A DNA stretch of 64,000 nt from Planctomycetota bacterium. GTDB lineage: Bacteria; Planctomycetota; Planctomycetia; Gemmatales; Gemmataceae. The notes beneath the pieces were generated by a model that saw only the letters and a list, made by a program, of their open reading frames with translations, was not told the origin of the DNA and made no database searches. The stretch covers positions 62,001 through 126,000 of the forward strand of contig JACPPF010000158.1 in the NCBI GenBank assembly GCA_016191165.1, given 5' to 3'. Of the stretch, positions 5,607 through 64,000 are shown piece after piece. Position 1 is the first letter of the stretch. Each line of letters begins with the position of its first letter. Both the position numbers and the translations under genes were made by a program.

Positions 5607-5730
5607 ATCCCGCTGCCTTTCGGCTGCGGGCGTTGGGTGACTTTCACGCCCGCAGCCGAAAGGCTGCGGGATCAGGCCGGGCGATGCACATGGATTTACA
5701 CGCCCGCAGCCGAAAGGCTGCGGGATCAGG
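5607..5730. repeat. three REP-like palindromes downstream of the RAYT gene
   Basis: Three copies of a roughly 27-bp palindrome (CCCGCAGCC, GAAA loop, GGCTGCGGG) lie at 5607-5633 (opposite orientation, one mismatch), 5647-5676 and 5701-5730. Copies two and three share the flank GATCAGG. The transposase stop codon (5726-5728) lies inside the third copy. Two more copies lie on the other side of the transposase, and two variants lie at 62848 and 63555. They fill the gap between pheT and the RAYT gene. Confidence 0.9.
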
Positions 5731-6312: not shown

Positions 6313-6383
6313 CGATCCCGCAGCCATTCGGCTGCGGGCGTGCAAGAAACCGCAAACGTCCGCAGCCGAAAGGCTGCGGGATT
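6313..6383. repeat. two REP-like palindromes upstream of the RAYT gene
   Basis: Copies at 6313-6341 (CCCGCAGCC, ATTC, GGCTGCGGG) and 6357-6383 (CCGCAGCC, GAAA, GGCTGCGG), in inverted orientation to each other. They lie between the transposase start and the pheS stop and complete the flanking of the RAYT gene. Confidence 0.88.
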
Positions 6384-16738: not shown

Positions 16739-16809
16739 GTTTAGCCGCTCGCCTGTGGCGAGCGCGGGCGCGCAAGTTCACACCGCTCGCCAAAGGCGAG
16801 CGGCTAAAC
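16739..16809. repeat. GTTTAGCCGCTCGCC inverted repeat
   Basis: GTTTAGCCGCTCGCCTGTGG and CCAAAGGCGAGCGGCTAAAC form the arms around a GC-rich loop. It lies upstream of the glycerate kinase gene and at the stop of the 16818-19073 gene. It is the same family as 42614 and 50557. Confidence 0.9.
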
Positions 16810-42613: not shown

Positions 42614-42704
42614 GTTTAGCCGCTCGCCAAAGGCGAGCGTGAAAAACAGCGCTCGCCAAAGGCGAGCGTGAAAAACAGCGCTCGCCAAAGGCGAGCGGCT
42701 AAAC
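42614..42704. repeat. GTTTAGCCGC repeat with three tandem GCTCGCCAAAGGCGAGC hairpins
   Basis: The outer arms GTTTAGCCGC and GCGGCTAAAC enclose three tandem copies of a CTCGCCAAAGGCGAG hairpin. The first two are each followed by the spacer GTGAAAAACAGC. The other copies of this family (16739, 50557) have two hairpin units. It lies between the two methyltransferase genes. Confidence 0.92.
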
Positions 42705-50556: not shown

Positions 50557-50617
50557 GTTTAGCCCCTCGCCTCTGGCGAGCGCATGCAACCCGCTCGCCC
50601 AAGGCGAGCGGCTAAAC
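50557..50617. repeat. GTTTAGCCGCTCGCC inverted repeat
   Basis: Left arm GTTTAGCCCCTCGCC and right arm GGCGAGCGGCTAAAC, with one mismatch in the left arm. It lies between argG and the DUF1801 gene. Same family as 16739 and 42614. Confidence 0.9.
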
Positions 50618-54200: not shown

Positions 54201-54718
54201 CCCTGCGCCAGTTGACACCCAGGCATTTTTCGCCTCTTCCTCCGGGAGAGGCGCCGGCCCGCCTTTTCACCCCCGCCAACGTGACGCGCTGGCAACTCGA
54301 CTTCACCCGCGAGGGCATGTTTCGCACCGGGACACGCCGCTTTGTTGGCCAGAACCCAACGCGCGATGCCGTCCTCGATTTCCTACTTCCCGCGAAAGCC
54401 GACAAGATTTCACTGAGGATACTCGATCTCTTTGGCAACCCGGTGCGTGTTTTTGATCTGGCCAAGGAGAAGGACGTTGGCATTCATCGCGTGACGTGGA
54501 ATCTGGTCGCCGGTTCCGAGCCGAAGGGGGCCAAAACAAAACCGTTCACGCCTTACGGCCAGCCGGTCAAACCCGGCGTCTACCGCGTCGTTCTTGGGGT
54601 GGACGGAACCGAATCGGAAAGCACGCTCACCATCGAGGCCGATCCGCGCACGCGCAAGGCCGGCAGTGCCGTCAACGAGGCCGAAGAATTGCGAAAACTG
54701 ATGAAGGAGCGGCCTTGA
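51290..54718 (+). CDS. exported BNR/VPS10-like beta-propeller protein with two embedded PDZ domains
   Basis: 1142 residues from the ATG at 51290, with a signal peptide (MRSQVTLRLFGIFTFFGILAGFILAQ). Asp-box (BNR) repeats of the sortilin/glycosyl-hydrolase propeller kind recur: GVYKSTDGGTSWKNMG, GLFKTTDGGKNWQQVW, GIFKSVDGGKTWKKLA, GIYKSTDAGETWTRVN and VWVTRDGGKSWTDV. Between the third and fourth of these, two PDZ domains are inserted (about 335-425: VRITSVADKSPAAIAKLAKG; about 440-525: DGLVLVELVDKAAAQKAGLK), split by a lysine/glycine-rich linker. The C-terminus (ISLRILDLFGNPVRVFDLAK) resembles a FlgD-Ig-like domain. No catalytic residue set is evident. Probably an extracytoplasmic binding or processing protein. 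Confidence 0.88.
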   Translation: MRSQVTLRLFGIFTFFGILAGFILAQNSGKKNTEPDRAKVGAAPQAGVLPAQLDRLFAWRPIGPANMGGRITSIAVFEADPTCYYVATASGGLLKTTNNGSTFTHLFDKENTVSLGAVAVAPTNRDIVWVGTGEANPRNSVSWGDGVYKSTDGGTSWKNMGLKQSFQIGKIIIHPKNPNIVYVAALGRLYGPNKERGLFKTTDGGKNWQQVWHLDDKTGAIDLVMHPANPETLIMASWERQRDEFDTFVGDAKPPPAADAYAPVKTHAPGGGIFKSVDGGKTWKKLAQGLPRANMGRIGLDWSRKNPNLVVAIIDTDQAGKGLPPSRAYVGIAFANSPKGVRITSVADKSPAAIAKLAKGDLLVSLNGKAIKSTSDFLVPMQKLSPGDKIKLAYQRGDKNGNAEITLALRPGQPKKKAGKGAKKGGKGGPRASLGIQIEESEDGLVLVELVDKAAAQKAGLKVGDVLLAVESIKVGTTQTLFKTLAGKRIGDTVKIVYQRGKEKKTLTVKLEAAPLGTPGRPYSGGFLAGQRANVQDIQGPEGPDTGGIYKSTDAGETWTRVNSLNERPFYFSVVRCDPNDEKSIYSLGINLWRSADEGRTFSTDGINSGFHVDLHDMWINPKDSRHLLLGTDGGLYVSYNRGAHWEFLDHMALGQFYHVAVDTRRPYRVYGGLQDNGSWGGPSNTLRPSGPTVADFQFIQGGDGFVCRVDPNDPDIVYSESQGGNMFRRNLRTGESKSLRPKIQSGAGRYRFNWNTPFILSSHNSHIFYAAANYVFRSVKQGENLRIISPEITRTKHGSATALSESPKDPGVLWVGSDDGAVWVTRDGGKSWTDVSANFKLPGPRWVASIEASRLASGRCYVVFDAHRSDDDEPYVYVTENFGQTWRSLRANLPKTSTRVLREDIKNANLLYLGTEFALFASIDRGESWFKLNGKELPTVAIHEIAQATTANEIVAATHGRSLWVLDVTTLRQLTPRHFSPLPPGEAPARLFTPANVTRWQLDFTREGMFRTGTRRFVGQNPTRDAVLDFLLPAKADKISLRILDLFGNPVRVFDLAKEKDVGIHRVTWNLVAGSEPKGAKTKPFTPYGQPVKPGVYRVVLGVDGTESESTLTIEADPRTRKAGSAVNEAEELRKLMKERP

Positions 54719-60266: not shown

Positions 60267-62333
60267 TCACTTTTTGAGAACACCATCCAGAAACCCATAG
60301 GCGACTTTACGTGCCGTCAGCGGAAACGCGTGCTTGCCGGGTGGATAGTGCGCGTTCAGCCGAGTTTCAGCGCCGTGAAGCTTGTAGATTGCCTTCGCCG
60401 CCAGCATCACGTCGCGGACGCCACTCACGTCGAAATCGTTGTCCTTCTCGGCCGCGCAGGCCAGGAACGCGCGCGGCGCGAACGCGGCGACGATCTCCTG
60501 GAAGTCGAACGGGACCTTTTTCGCGTCGTTGCCAAACTGCGTACGAATGCGTGGCATGTACACCGGGCCGGTCCAGCTTGGCATATCGTCTTTCCGGAAG
60601 GTGGTGAAGCCGCAGCTTGATACGATCGCCTTGATGCGTGGCTCGAAGACCGCCGTGAACATCGCGTTGTGGCCGCCGAGCGAATGGCCGATGACGCCGA
60701 TCTTTTCCCTATCGACCTCGGGCATCGTTTCGAGCAGGTCGATCGCCCGGCGGTTGTCCCAGATCGCTTTCATGGTTCCGCTGGCGTACTGCGTCTTCTT
60801 GAAATCAAATTTGTGCTCGCCGAAGGATGGGTAGTCGGGCATGATCGTGATGTAGCCGCGCTGCGCCAGTTCGAGGCCGTATTTCAGATCGGGATTGCCG
60901 CTGACGCCGGCGGTTTCGTCTTTGCCGGCCCTGGTCGTCTGATGCAGGCACAATATGGCGGGCAACTTGCCCTGGATCTTCTTTGCGGGCAGGTAGACAT
61001 AGGCGGGCACACGACCCGTCAAATCCGCTTGGTAGGTAATTTTCCGCCGGATGAGATCGCCCACGCGTTTTTCCTCGATCACCTTCACGTCGAGCGGCAC
61101 GCGCTGGAGCGGGCCGGGCATCGGGCCCATGACGCGCTCCATGTTCTTGACAACGTGCTGCCGACGCAGTTCCCAGTCGGTGACGGTCTTGATTGGCTGT
61201 GCTTTGCCCGCGGCGTCGCGGGAGTGCGTCACGTCCGTGTGATCCGGATACGCAACCACCGGTGGCGCTGGCTCGAATCGGCCGACTGGAAATCCTTTGG
61301 TATAGGAGATGACGAACGCGCCATCAGACGTCGGATAGCGAATCTCCTCACCCCGTTCAAAATCGGTTGGCCTCGCCAGCCGACGGCCGCCGGATTTCAG
61401 GTAATGTTCCGCAACCTTGAACACGATCTGCGTGCGATTGCCCAGCGCGTGGCCGCTGCTGGTGAAGACCTTGCCGTCGAGGTCCTTCTTCGCAATCCAG
61501 TGTGGCTCAACATCCAAGCGTGCGTGTTGCATCCAGCCGACCATCTCGCGGGCGTCGGCATAGGGGCACGTCGTGTCGTCCACGCCGTGAACGACGACGA
61601 TCTTGGCCGTCGATTCAAGGCGTTTCATGACAGCAAGATGATCGGGGTTGCCGAGGTAACGCATCTCCTGATGATCGAGTGAAAGGTAGTTCGGGCTTTT
61701 GGGGTCGCGCGAATAGCGAGCGTCGAGCGAGCTGCCGCCGGGGAGGTTGAAGGCGATGTCGTCGGAGAGCTTGGGCATTCCGCACAGGTCGATGATGCAG
61801 GCGAAGGTGCGCGGCGCGAGCTTGTTGGCCATCAGCGTCACGTTGCCGCCGCCTGACCCGCCGGTGCAAAAAATCCGGCCTGACTCGAACGGCAGCTTTC
61901 GGTTTTTCAGATCGTTGAACGCAGCATGGAGCGCGCGCAGCGCATCAAGGCCTTGCAGGTAGCCGAAGTCGTAGGGTTCGGGCCCGTCGATGGAATCCTT
62001 GCGGCCACTTTGCAAATAATTGACACACAGGGCGATGACGTTAAGGCGATTGGCGAGTTCACGTGGGCTTGCGGTGCCGACGCAATCGACGCCGCCCCAG
62101 TTGTGCAGGGTGAGCATCAGCCCGGTGTTCTTGTTGACGTTTGCCAGCTTGCCGCCGGGATAATGCACGAGGACGCGCACGCGGCGAGGCCCCGGACGCA
62201 GCGGCCACTCCTGGGCTGGCACTTCCACGGCGCCATCGGTCGCGGGCAACTTTGGCCAGGCCTCCTGGGCGGACATGGGGGCCACCGCCGTCAGCAGAGC
62301 GGTCAGGCACAGAAGCAGACGCATTGCATTCAC
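60267..62333 (-). CDS. exported protein with two tandem alpha/beta-hydrolase domains
   Basis: 688 residues with signal peptide MRLLLCLTALLTAVAPMSAQ (ATG at 62333 or 62324). The first domain (about 45-310) has the nucleophile elbow CTGGSGGGNVTLMANKL near 158, an acid in VVHGVDDTTCPYADAREM and a histidine in TSSGHALGN. The second (about 430-688) is like acetyl-xylan esterase or dienelactone hydrolase, with ILCLHQTTRAGKDETAG, the elbow VIGHSLGGHNAMF near 565, an acid in CAAEKDNDFD and the histidine in PPGKHAFPL. Both triads look complete. This is a natural fusion seen in planctomycetes, probably for polysaccharide ester removal outside the cytoplasm. It is divergent from another hydrolase gene. 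Confidence 0.88.
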   Translation of the reverse strand: MNAMRLLLCLTALLTAVAPMSAQEAWPKLPATDGAVEVPAQEWPLRPGPRRVRVLVHYPGGKLANVNKNTGLMLTLHNWGGVDCVGTASPRELANRLNVIALCVNYLQSGRKDSIDGPEPYDFGYLQGLDALRALHAAFNDLKNRKLPFESGRIFCTGGSGGGNVTLMANKLAPRTFACIIDLCGMPKLSDDIAFNLPGGSSLDARYSRDPKSPNYLSLDHQEMRYLGNPDHLAVMKRLESTAKIVVVHGVDDTTCPYADAREMVGWMQHARLDVEPHWIAKKDLDGKVFTSSGHALGNRTQIVFKVAEHYLKSGGRRLARPTDFERGEEIRYPTSDGAFVISYTKGFPVGRFEPAPPVVAYPDHTDVTHSRDAAGKAQPIKTVTDWELRRQHVVKNMERVMGPMPGPLQRVPLDVKVIEEKRVGDLIRRKITYQADLTGRVPAYVYLPAKKIQGKLPAILCLHQTTRAGKDETAGVSGNPDLKYGLELAQRGYITIMPDYPSFGEHKFDFKKTQYASGTMKAIWDNRRAIDLLETMPEVDREKIGVIGHSLGGHNAMFTAVFEPRIKAIVSSCGFTTFRKDDMPSWTGPVYMPRIRTQFGNDAKKVPFDFQEIVAAFAPRAFLACAAEKDNDFDVSGVRDVMLAAKAIYKLHGAETRLNAHYPPGKHAFPLTARKVAYGFLDGVLKK

Positions 62334-62389
62334 CTCTTGGTTTTGCTGGCGGGCCGTTCCTGTTCATGATACGATCTGAGGCCGATTGC

Positions 62390-62471
62390 CGTAGGGTGCG
62401 TCAAGCGCAGCGCGGACGCACCACGTTTTGCCAAGGCTCGGTGGGCCTCGCTGCGCTCGACCCACCCTACG
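62390..62471. repeat. inverted repeat between divergent hydrolase genes
   Basis: CGTAGGGTGCGTCAAGCGCA at the left and TGCGCTCGACCCACCCTACG at the right pair with mismatches. The inner halves pair again (GGGTGCGTC with GACGCACC-like, GTGGGC with GACCCAC). The GCGCAGCG core links it to the 7422 and 41859 repeats. Confidence 0.8.
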
Positions 62472-62482
62472 AGGTTCTTCCT

Positions 62483-64000
62483 ATGCGCTATTTGTTCGCG
62501 TTTATCATTCTACTTTTCCCCTTCGCGCTCGGTGCTCAGGAAAAAAAGCAACCCAAACCCGGCGACGTGATGATCGAGAAGTATCTCGCTGCCGAAGCCG
62601 ACAAGCTCTCGAAGAATTTTCTCGACGGCGCCAAGACGATTGCCCAGTGGAAAGCGAATCGGCCACGTCTTTATCGCGAGTACATGGACATGCTCGGGCT
62701 CTGGCCGATGCCGGAGAAGACGCCGCTGAAGGCGACGGTGACGGGGACGGTGGAGGCGCATGGGGTTGTTGTTGAAAAGGTGCATTTTCAATCGAAGCCG
62801 GGGCTTTATGTGACGGCGAATGTTTATCGGCCTAAAGCCAACGCTCCATCCCGCGGCCTTTCGGCCGCGGGCGTGAAGTATCCTGCTGTGGTCTATGTTT
62901 GTGGGCATTCGGGGCGGGGGCGCGACGGGGTCAAGACGGCGTTTCAAGACCACGGCTTCTGGTTCGCGAACAACGGCTACGTCTGCATCGTCCTCGACAC
63001 GCTTCAACTTGGCGAAATCCCCGGGGTGCATCACGGCACCTATGGCAGACCGTGGGGGCATCTTGGTTCATGGCTAACCAGCCGGGAGCGCAAGGGACCG
63101 GACATCGCCGAGAAAATGAAGAATCACAATCGCTTCTGGTGGCACTCAATCGGCTACAGCCCCGCCGCGGTCGAATGCTGGAACGGCATCCGGGCCATCG
63201 ATTATCTCCTGACGCGCGACGACGTCGATCCCGAAAAAATAGGCGTCACCGGCATCTCCGGCGGCGGCGCGGCGACGTTCTGGATCGCCGCCGCCGATGA
63301 CCGCGTCAAGGTCGCCGTCCCGGTCAGCGGCATGAGCGACCTCGAATTCTACATCAAGAACAAGGGCATCAACGGCCATTGCGATTGCATGTTCCTTTAC
63401 AACACGTACCAGTGGGACTGGACAACCATAGCGGCCCTGGTCGCGCCCAGACCGATGCTGTTCGCCAACAGCGACAAGGACCCGATCTTCCCGATGGACG
63501 CCAACCGCCGCATTTTTGCGAAACTCCAGAAGATCTACGGCATGTACCGTACCGACGCCCGCGGCCGAAAGGCCGCGGGATTAGTACAAGAGTACGTCAG
63601 CGAGGGCGGCCACGACTACCGCACCGACCTGCGCCTCGCGATCTTCCGCTTCTTCAACAAGCACCTCAAAGGCGACGCCAAAGCCAAGGTCGAAGACAGC
63701 GCCAGCTACACGCCGCTCGAAGGCAAGAAGCTGCGCGTATTCCCGACCGACGCCGATTTGCCGAAAGACGCGATCAATCACAAGATCGACGAGACGTTCA
63801 TCCTGGCCGCGAAAGTGACGTTGCCGGAGAGGGGGAAGTTTGCGGAGTGGAAGAAGGGCAAGATGGTCGTCCTTCGCCATAAAGTGTTCCCCTATTTCAC
63901 TCAAAGAATCGCTCCCGAACGGATCATCCTCGAAGAAATCGGTTTTGGGATGAGTGTCCGTGGAGGTTGCGTAACCGAAGGGCCGGTGGTGGTTGACATC
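62483..64000 (+). CDS. exported alpha/beta hydrolase interrupted in frame by two REP palindromes (3' end beyond window)
   Basis: 506 residues are visible from the ATG at 62483, and the frame is open at the window edge. Signal peptide MRYLFAFIILLFPFALGAQ. A helical N-terminus (about 25-95) leads into an alpha/beta-hydrolase core: YPAVVYVCGHSGRGRDG, the nucleophile elbow GVTGISGGGAATFW near 258, an acid in NSDKDPIFPMD and a histidine in SEGGHDYRTD. The layout fits the acetyl-xylan-esterase-like family common in planctomycetes. Two REP palindromes are translated: PSRGLSAAGV near 123-132 and DARGRKAAGL near 358-367, both where other members are expected to have short loops. The frame survives both insertions. 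Confidence 0.85.
   Translation, partial: MRYLFAFIILLFPFALGAQEKKQPKPGDVMIEKYLAAEADKLSKNFLDGAKTIAQWKANRPRLYREYMDMLGLWPMPEKTPLKATVTGTVEAHGVVVEKVHFQSKPGLYVTANVYRPKANAPSRGLSAAGVKYPAVVYVCGHSGRGRDGVKTAFQDHGFWFANNGYVCIVLDTLQLGEIPGVHHGTYGRPWGHLGSWLTSRERKGPDIAEKMKNHNRFWWHSIGYSPAAVECWNGIRAIDYLLTRDDVDPEKIGVTGISGGGAATFWIAAADDRVKVAVPVSGMSDLEFYIKNKGINGHCDCMFLYNTYQWDWTTIAALVAPRPMLFANSDKDPIFPMDANRRIFAKLQKIYGMYRTDARGRKAAGLVQEYVSEGGHDYRTDLRLAIFRFFNKHLKGDAKAKVEDSASYTPLEGKKLRVFPTDADLPKDAINHKIDETFILAAKVTLPERGKFAEWKKGKMVVLRHKVFPYFTQRIAPERIILEEIGFGMSVRGGCVTEGPVVVDI
62848..62874. repeat. REP-like palindrome inside a coding sequence, copy 1
   Basis: ATCCCGCGGCC, TTTC, GGCCGCGGGCGT: same unit as the palindromes around the RAYT gene (5607-6383), with G/C in place of one A/T pair. 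It is read in frame as SRGLSAAG. Confidence 0.9.
63555..63583. repeat. REP-like palindrome inside a coding sequence, copy 2 (inverted)
   Basis: CGCCCGCGGCC, GAAA, GGCCGCGGGATTA: the reverse orientation of the copy at 62848, in the same gene and also in frame, read as ARGRKAAGL. Confidence 0.9.

Follow-up and report, generated by a model that had tools for sequence, protein, structure and literature searches.

Two copies of a short palindrome lie in one hydrolase gene of a planctomycete of the Gemmataceae, in opposite orientations and without breaking its frame. Are these copies genuine insertions of a mobile repeat, and if so, how does a protein-coding gene accommodate them? We have examined this question in the window, the 64,000-nucleotide stretch at contig positions 62001-126000 of a 7.2-Mb draft genome (G000), and in its relatives (G001, G002 and so on). 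All of the closely compared genomes are draft assemblies.

Results

Architecture and distribution of the repeat

A search of G000 with CCCGCNGCCGAAAGGCNGCGGG gave about 85 places, and 83 members were fetched with their flanks and compared; the census combined pattern searches and fetched regions. The repeat, here called family A, has the layout ACG-(9-bp stem)-GNNA-(9-bp stem)-AT and is a sharply bounded unit of 27 nt. Among the 83 members, the stem is preceded by ACG in 69 and by AAG in 10, and it is followed by AT in 75. The loop is GAAA in 51 members, GACA in 14 and GAGA in 6, and no position beyond the edges is comparably conserved. Changes in the stem are two-sided (pair 4 from GC to AT, pair 6 from AT to GC, pair 7 from GC to CG). 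Neighbors within 80 nt form 19 pairs, 16 of them tail-to-tail, like BIME doublets. With about 83 occurrences of the unit in G000, chance is excluded as the origin of the two hydrolase copies.

Copies within two mismatches number 78 in G000, 17 in its sister G001 and 11 in G006; in 90-odd other relatives the counts are near those of a reversed-pattern control. Judged from this distribution, family A is recent and local. A REP, in the general sense, is a hairpin of 20-40 nt with many dispersed copies, mostly intergenic and frequently in inverted pairs. Family A corresponds to this description, as a hairpin whose members lie in about 70 places not clearly in genes and whose pairs are mostly tail-to-tail. 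Five further units lie between genes in the window (Table 1), in two clusters amid minus-strand genes; their arrangements include - + and + +, which are rare for the family.

The family A consensus amounts to nine codons and contains no stop in any of the six frames; a stop is possible only at the junction. Therefore, a single insertion without target duplication is frame-neutral. A MITE would have terminal inverted repeats and a target-site duplication; the unit is a single hairpin, and no such duplication was seen in the aligned loops, whose variability makes this absence tentative.

Table 1. Coordinates of the features discussed, all in the window
Feature	Position	Strand	Description	Basis or comparison
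Host gene	62483..64000	+	predicted exported alpha/beta-hydrolase, Peptidase_S9 / glucuronoyl-esterase-like; continues beyond window end	ORF, Pfam
Family A unit 1	62848..62874	-	in frame, residues 122-131, read (P)SRGLSAAGV	not in any orthologue compared
Family A unit 2	63555..63581	+	in frame, residues 358-367, read (D)ARGRKAAGL	not in any orthologue compared
Probable third, degenerate insert	63074..63106	+	LTSRERKGPDI, residues 198-208, another loop	7 extra residues vs congeners
Family A unit, core	5609-5630	-	between genes	
Family A unit, core	5649-5670	+	between genes	
Family A unit, core	5703-5724	+	between genes	
Family A unit, core	6317-6338	-	between genes	
Family A unit, core	6359-6380	+	between genes	
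Imperfect 26-nt inverted repeat (CGTAGGGTGCGTC...)	62390-62471		immediately upstream of hydrolase gene	
REP family GTTTAGCCGCTCGCC-AAA-GGCGAGCG	16746-16803, 42621-42697, 50591-50611			stem also flanks Y1 gene at L075
CCCCTCTCCC-type palindrome (family D)	54231-54253		apparently in frame, 1161-aa open frame, SPLPPGEAP	

The host hydrolase and its inserts

The host gene has an open frame of 810 aa in the contig and matches PF00326 and PF22244 (Peptidase_S9 and fungal glucuronoyl esterase models). The solved structures nearest to its predicted model are the methylesterase BT1017 and CE15 glucuronoyl esterases. Close orthologues come from Gemmataceae and other Planctomycetota MAGs, with recorded habitats in Lake Baikal, other lakes and groundwater. 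A sequence-only reading of the window had placed two palindromes in this gene, and both are indeed present in the frame that opens at 62483, as CCCGCGGCCTTTCGGCCGCGGG at 62850-62871 and CCCGCGGCCGAAAGGCCGCGGG at 63558-63579. The two full units are identical over 27 nt and form a perfect inverted pair spaced by 680 nt. Rfam gave no family reaching its gathering score over 62300-64000.

That reading regarded the palindromes as real insertions and proposed an alignment with homologues as the check. The alignment bears it out, because both peptides are missing from every hydrolase orthologue that covers the sites; loop 1 is empty in nine relatives. The expected addition of 9-11 residues each holds only in part. 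The units do encode in-frame peptides, but each is exactly nine codons long, and the loops exceed those of congeners by a net 5-7 residues or so. Thus, the hydrolase insertions are not clean additions to the congeners' loops. A clean 27-nt empty site for these copies was sought and none was found; the loops of the relatives vary in sequence and length.

In the AlphaFold2 model of the hydrolase (mean pLDDT 80), insert 1 sits between the strands 108-117 and 133-139, with a pLDDT of about 56, and insert 2 sits between the helix 338-354 and the strand 368-373. Both units occupy predicted loops between secondary-structure elements. The idea that they add loops thus agrees with the model, and these loops may lie at the surface. 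The probable third insert lies in a low-confidence part of the model and resembles another palindrome, family C (ACCAGCCCGGAGCGCAAGCGAC), with about two mismatches as judged by eye.

Family A copies inside genes

Copies inside genes were identified with a hexamer coding model trained on long G000 ORFs, which had to indicate coding on both flanks in one continuous frame. The genome-wide count of in-frame copies and of the frames used, which the sequence-only reading had called for, gave 13 clear cases in ten genes with coding signal on both sides. The hosts are the hydrolase (two copies), a YgiQ-type radical SAM protein and a LarC-type nickel-insertion protein (an inverted pair in each), three DUF1501 proteins, a DUF6797 protein, a DUF7133 protein, a large protein of a type common in planctomycetes (L114) and an unassigned protein (L093). 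A fourteenth, degenerate copy lies in a protein kinase gene (L097). This set does not include weak candidates in minor ORFs (L106, and L114 at 6077), nor the poor matches L115, L128, L131 and L133.

About 14 of 80 copies are in genes, compared with 65.5% of random positions, a strong depletion (p ~1e-18). Family A is therefore mainly intergenic, with a tolerated in-frame minority. Among the roughly 80 copies scored in G000, none clearly breaks the frame of a gene. Of the frame-breaking candidates examined, the family A ones at L082 and L125 appear intergenic, and the one at L307 turned out to be a C-terminal in-frame extension.

One codon phase, read as ARSRKAAG or, reversed, as SRSLSAAG, accounts for 10 of the 13 copies (p = 0.0016). 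Since the remaining phases encode peptides that are Pro/Cys-rich or more charged, this bias is most simply read as selection acting on the peptide, although a target-site preference could contribute in part. Open frames, coding signal and phase bias together suggest that the in-frame units are translated.

Only G001 shares with G000 the pairs in LarC and YgiQ and the copies in the DUF6797 and DUF7133 genes. A DUF1501 protein is about 82-88% identical across the compared genomes, and its loop is short and empty in G003, G004, G005 and G010. The L114 gene of G006 carries an A-like unit with a different stem. At family A sites the net gain over relatives is usually below nine residues, and hence one has to assume that a few codons of the target were lost or replaced.

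Family B and further palindromes in genes

A second palindrome, family B, is a unit of 30 nt with the structure AAAG-CCCAGGGAC-GGCC-GTCCCTGGG-CTTT. There are 31 copies in G002, 66 in G006 and 10 in G000; forward and reverse counts are equal because family B is self-complementary. All copies from G002 and about half of those from G006 were fetched. In G002, 28 of the 31 are intragenic and in frame, compared with 67% of random positions there that score as in genes, and the other three lie together in one region. Of the copies sampled from G006, about 15 of 34 are intragenic and in frame. The hosts in G002 include IleRS, Ffh, pyruvate dehydrogenase E1, an aldehyde dehydrogenase and a class-III aminotransferase, and those in G006 include thiamine-phosphate kinase, aconitase and a UbiD-type decarboxylase. 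In the two genomes together, the three phases are used 16:26:1 (p = 1.6e-5), and the avoided one reads KPRDGRPWAF. At L266:2997-3048 of G002, one open frame terminates at two family B units separated by 8 nt, and the coding signal goes on in another frame; this double insertion is possibly frame-breaking.

Family D scores in frame in 8 of 19 copies in the fetched DNA. The DUF7133 gene, which has a family A copy, also contains at L132:5539-5614 an in-frame inverted pair of a GTAG REP, read as VGQAFQPD...RQAGKPDLR; units of this GTAG REP also lie around a Y1 transposase gene.

Different palindromes in the same loops

Several protein loops are occupied by unrelated palindromes in different congeners. 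The aconitase loop is empty in G000 and G005, filled by family B in G002 and G006 and filled by family D in G001; B-filled and empty sites differ by a net 27 nt. In the DUF1501 loop, family A is found in G000, family B in G002 and family C (GTTAGCCGGACGCGCAAGCGAC) in G001 and G006, and the loop is empty elsewhere. The DUF7133 loop contains family A in G000 and G001, family D in G002 and family C in G005. The aldehyde dehydrogenase loop contains family B in G002 and G006 and the peptide VGQAFQPD...QAGKPDLR in G000 and G004. This peptide is GGTCAGGCTTTCCAGCCTGAC read in frame, and the GTAG form of that REP surrounds a Y1 gene (G000, L069).

For nine A sites, recognized palindromes were found in 12 of 64 orthologous loops, compared with 7 of 5593 control windows drawn from those genes (Fisher p = 7e-20); four of the 12 are an A element common to the sister G001 and are therefore not independent events. 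In G002, family B occurs at four A loops, for a random expectation of 0.005. One of its copies (GCCCAGGGACGGCCGTCCCTGGGC) occupies loop 2 of the hydrolase, and another lies in the orthologue of L114.

Discussion

Relation to transposases and known repeats

The repeat had been supposed to be RAYT-linked, and our results do not support this for family A. It flanks none of 11 Y1_Tnp loci in G000 and none of 25 in G001, G002, G005 and G006, in flanks of up to about 1.5 kb; since the genomes are drafts, this absence is not final. Repeats of the GTAG superfamily carry a GTAG tag beside the stem and flank a RAYT gene. Family A has ACG or AAG in place of GTAG and no flanking RAYT gene at these 36 loci. 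The CGTC superfamily is characterized by a CGTC tag, complementary A/T at stem positions 1-2 and a CCA tail (PMC3733652). The stem of family A starts with CCC/GGG, and the base before ACG is mostly C, the reverse reading being CGTG. Lacking both tags and a RAYT neighbor, family A is not placed in either superfamily.

Other repeats in these genomes do lie beside Y1 genes. GTAGGTCAGGCTTTCCAGCCTGAC, another REP found here in frame, flanks a Y1 transposase gene, and some Y1 genes are flanked by further REPs, including stems like the CCCAGGG of family B (L065, L201). At L069:731-1858, a Y1 transposase gene lies amid a dozen GTAG-GTCAGGCT-TTCC-AGCCTGAC units, some of them in a 30-nt tandem array.

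Contrary to the earlier assumption, Rickettsia is not the main source of known in-frame palindromes; intragenic REPs were catalogued in several genera by Di Nocera et al. in 2013, with most GTAG ones in Opitutus terrae (PMC3733652). The Rickettsia palindromic elements (RPEs) are likewise palindromes that have entered, in frame, many genes that are unrelated and probably functional (PMC10969869; PMC3733652). Family A shares with them the in-frame insertion in unrelated genes whose relatives are without it. Length and phylum set the two apart: RPEs were first reported at about 150 bp with a conserved peptide, whereas families A and B are 27 or 30 nt, stop-free and found in a free-living planctomycete. 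The intragenic GTAG and CGTC REPs of Opitutus terrae, R. conorii, Xanthomonas and Thauera are also short hairpins, single or in inverted pairs and in part in genes, and the recB genes of two Xanthomonas species carry different REPs at about one site (PMC3733652). In contrast to these, family A has the tag ACG/AAG with AT, family B is almost wholly intragenic in G002 (28/31), and loop reuse and phase bias are measured here.

As in REPIN/RAYT systems (PMC3116915), inverted pairs of short palindromes are dispersed in one lineage and G000 has GTAG REPs beside Y1 genes, but no RAYT gene flanked by family A was found. The enterobacterial RU-1/2/3 fusions (PMC2759123) are also small mobile sequences read in annotated proteins, although these measure 103-168 bp rather than being 27-30 nt hairpins. 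In-frame REP and RPE insertions have thus been published before; what looks new is the lineage in which they occur, a family (B) that is largely intragenic, and the fact that phase bias and loop reuse have been measured. We found no publication on REPs in Gemmataceae in the open-access literature searched, and earlier descriptions may exist elsewhere.

Proposed explanation and alternatives

In our view, family A is very probably a REP-like palindrome of 27 nt, mobile but non-autonomous, which has spread through this lineage of Gemmataceae and is tolerated in permissive loops, mostly as a neutral element. Sharp boundaries, the number of copies, their in-frame siting, the orthologues without them, the phase bias and the recurrent use of loops speak for this view; a net gain below nine residues and the failure to find a target duplication or a linked transposase weigh against it. 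Its movement may be effected in trans by a single-strand transposase of the HUH/Y1 type acting on the hairpin; no transposase is linked to family A. A length that is a multiple of three and a consensus free of stops in six frames allow it to be tolerated in genes. Copies that reach a rigid or essential region, or that are read in a harmful frame, would be purged, and the survivors would reside in permissive loops, be translated as peptides of about nine residues and persist mostly as neutral passengers.

The Ala-, Arg- and Gly-rich peptides and the GC-rich genome might suggest a mere coincidence of conserved codons, but the orthologues do not have these residues, and conservation of the repeat extends at the DNA level over its 27 nt, synonymous positions included, in about 70 places outside clear genes. 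In addition, its 20-nt core has 7 matches in the window against 0.03 expected from shuffling. We regard this explanation as refuted, with a probability close to nil. An assembly artefact or chimeric MAG sequence has a very slight chance of being the cause. Draft assemblies and the proximity of some palindromes to contig ends would fit it; against it, the LarC and YgiQ insertions are present in both G000 and G001, and those in IleRS, aconitase and aldehyde dehydrogenase in both G002 and G006, with flanks of 83-91% protein identity.

The units in genes could instead be retained for a role of the mRNA or DNA hairpin, such as translation pausing, mRNA stability or protein binding. Stems do stay paired through two-sided changes, also in gene-borne copies (LarC, L114), and the LarC, YgiQ and two other insertions are common to G000 and G001. 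Such a role is improbable, as the units occur in unrelated genes and in both orientations, one loop can house different families, and the codon-phase bias points to an effect via the peptide. A more serious but still rather doubtful alternative is turnover at landing pads, in which new palindromes preferentially replace older ones rather than entering virgin loops. It would account for net length differences below a full unit and for loops with different families in many congeners (DUF1501 with A, B, C or none; DUF7133 with A, C or D; aldehyde dehydrogenase with B or the VGQAFQPD repeat, R). Clearly empty loops argue against it, namely aconitase in G000 and G005, DUF1501 in G003, G004, G005 and G010, and hydrolase loop 1 in nine relatives. 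The tolerated mobile palindrome thus remains our preferred reading of family A.

Implications

Ever since the Rickettsia elements, it has been a question whether intragenic repeats are junk that is merely tolerated or supply proteins with new segments. The congeners offer a natural experiment, in which one enzyme loop is vacant in some and holds one of two or three unrelated palindromes in others, with IleRS, Ffh and aconitase among the proteins concerned. Through frame bias and loop reuse, tolerance can be measured from the sequence alone. Palindrome sites mark insertion-tolerant loops, and the annotated proteins of these genomes include repeat-derived peptides. A wider proposal, for and against which we see the balance as even, is that several palindrome families of this Gemmataceae genus act as frame-neutral, protein-inserting elements (27/30 nt, stop-free), one of them mainly intragenic in one species. 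They would repeatedly colonize a few shared permissive loops of conserved, even essential proteins and may be a continuing source of new protein segments.
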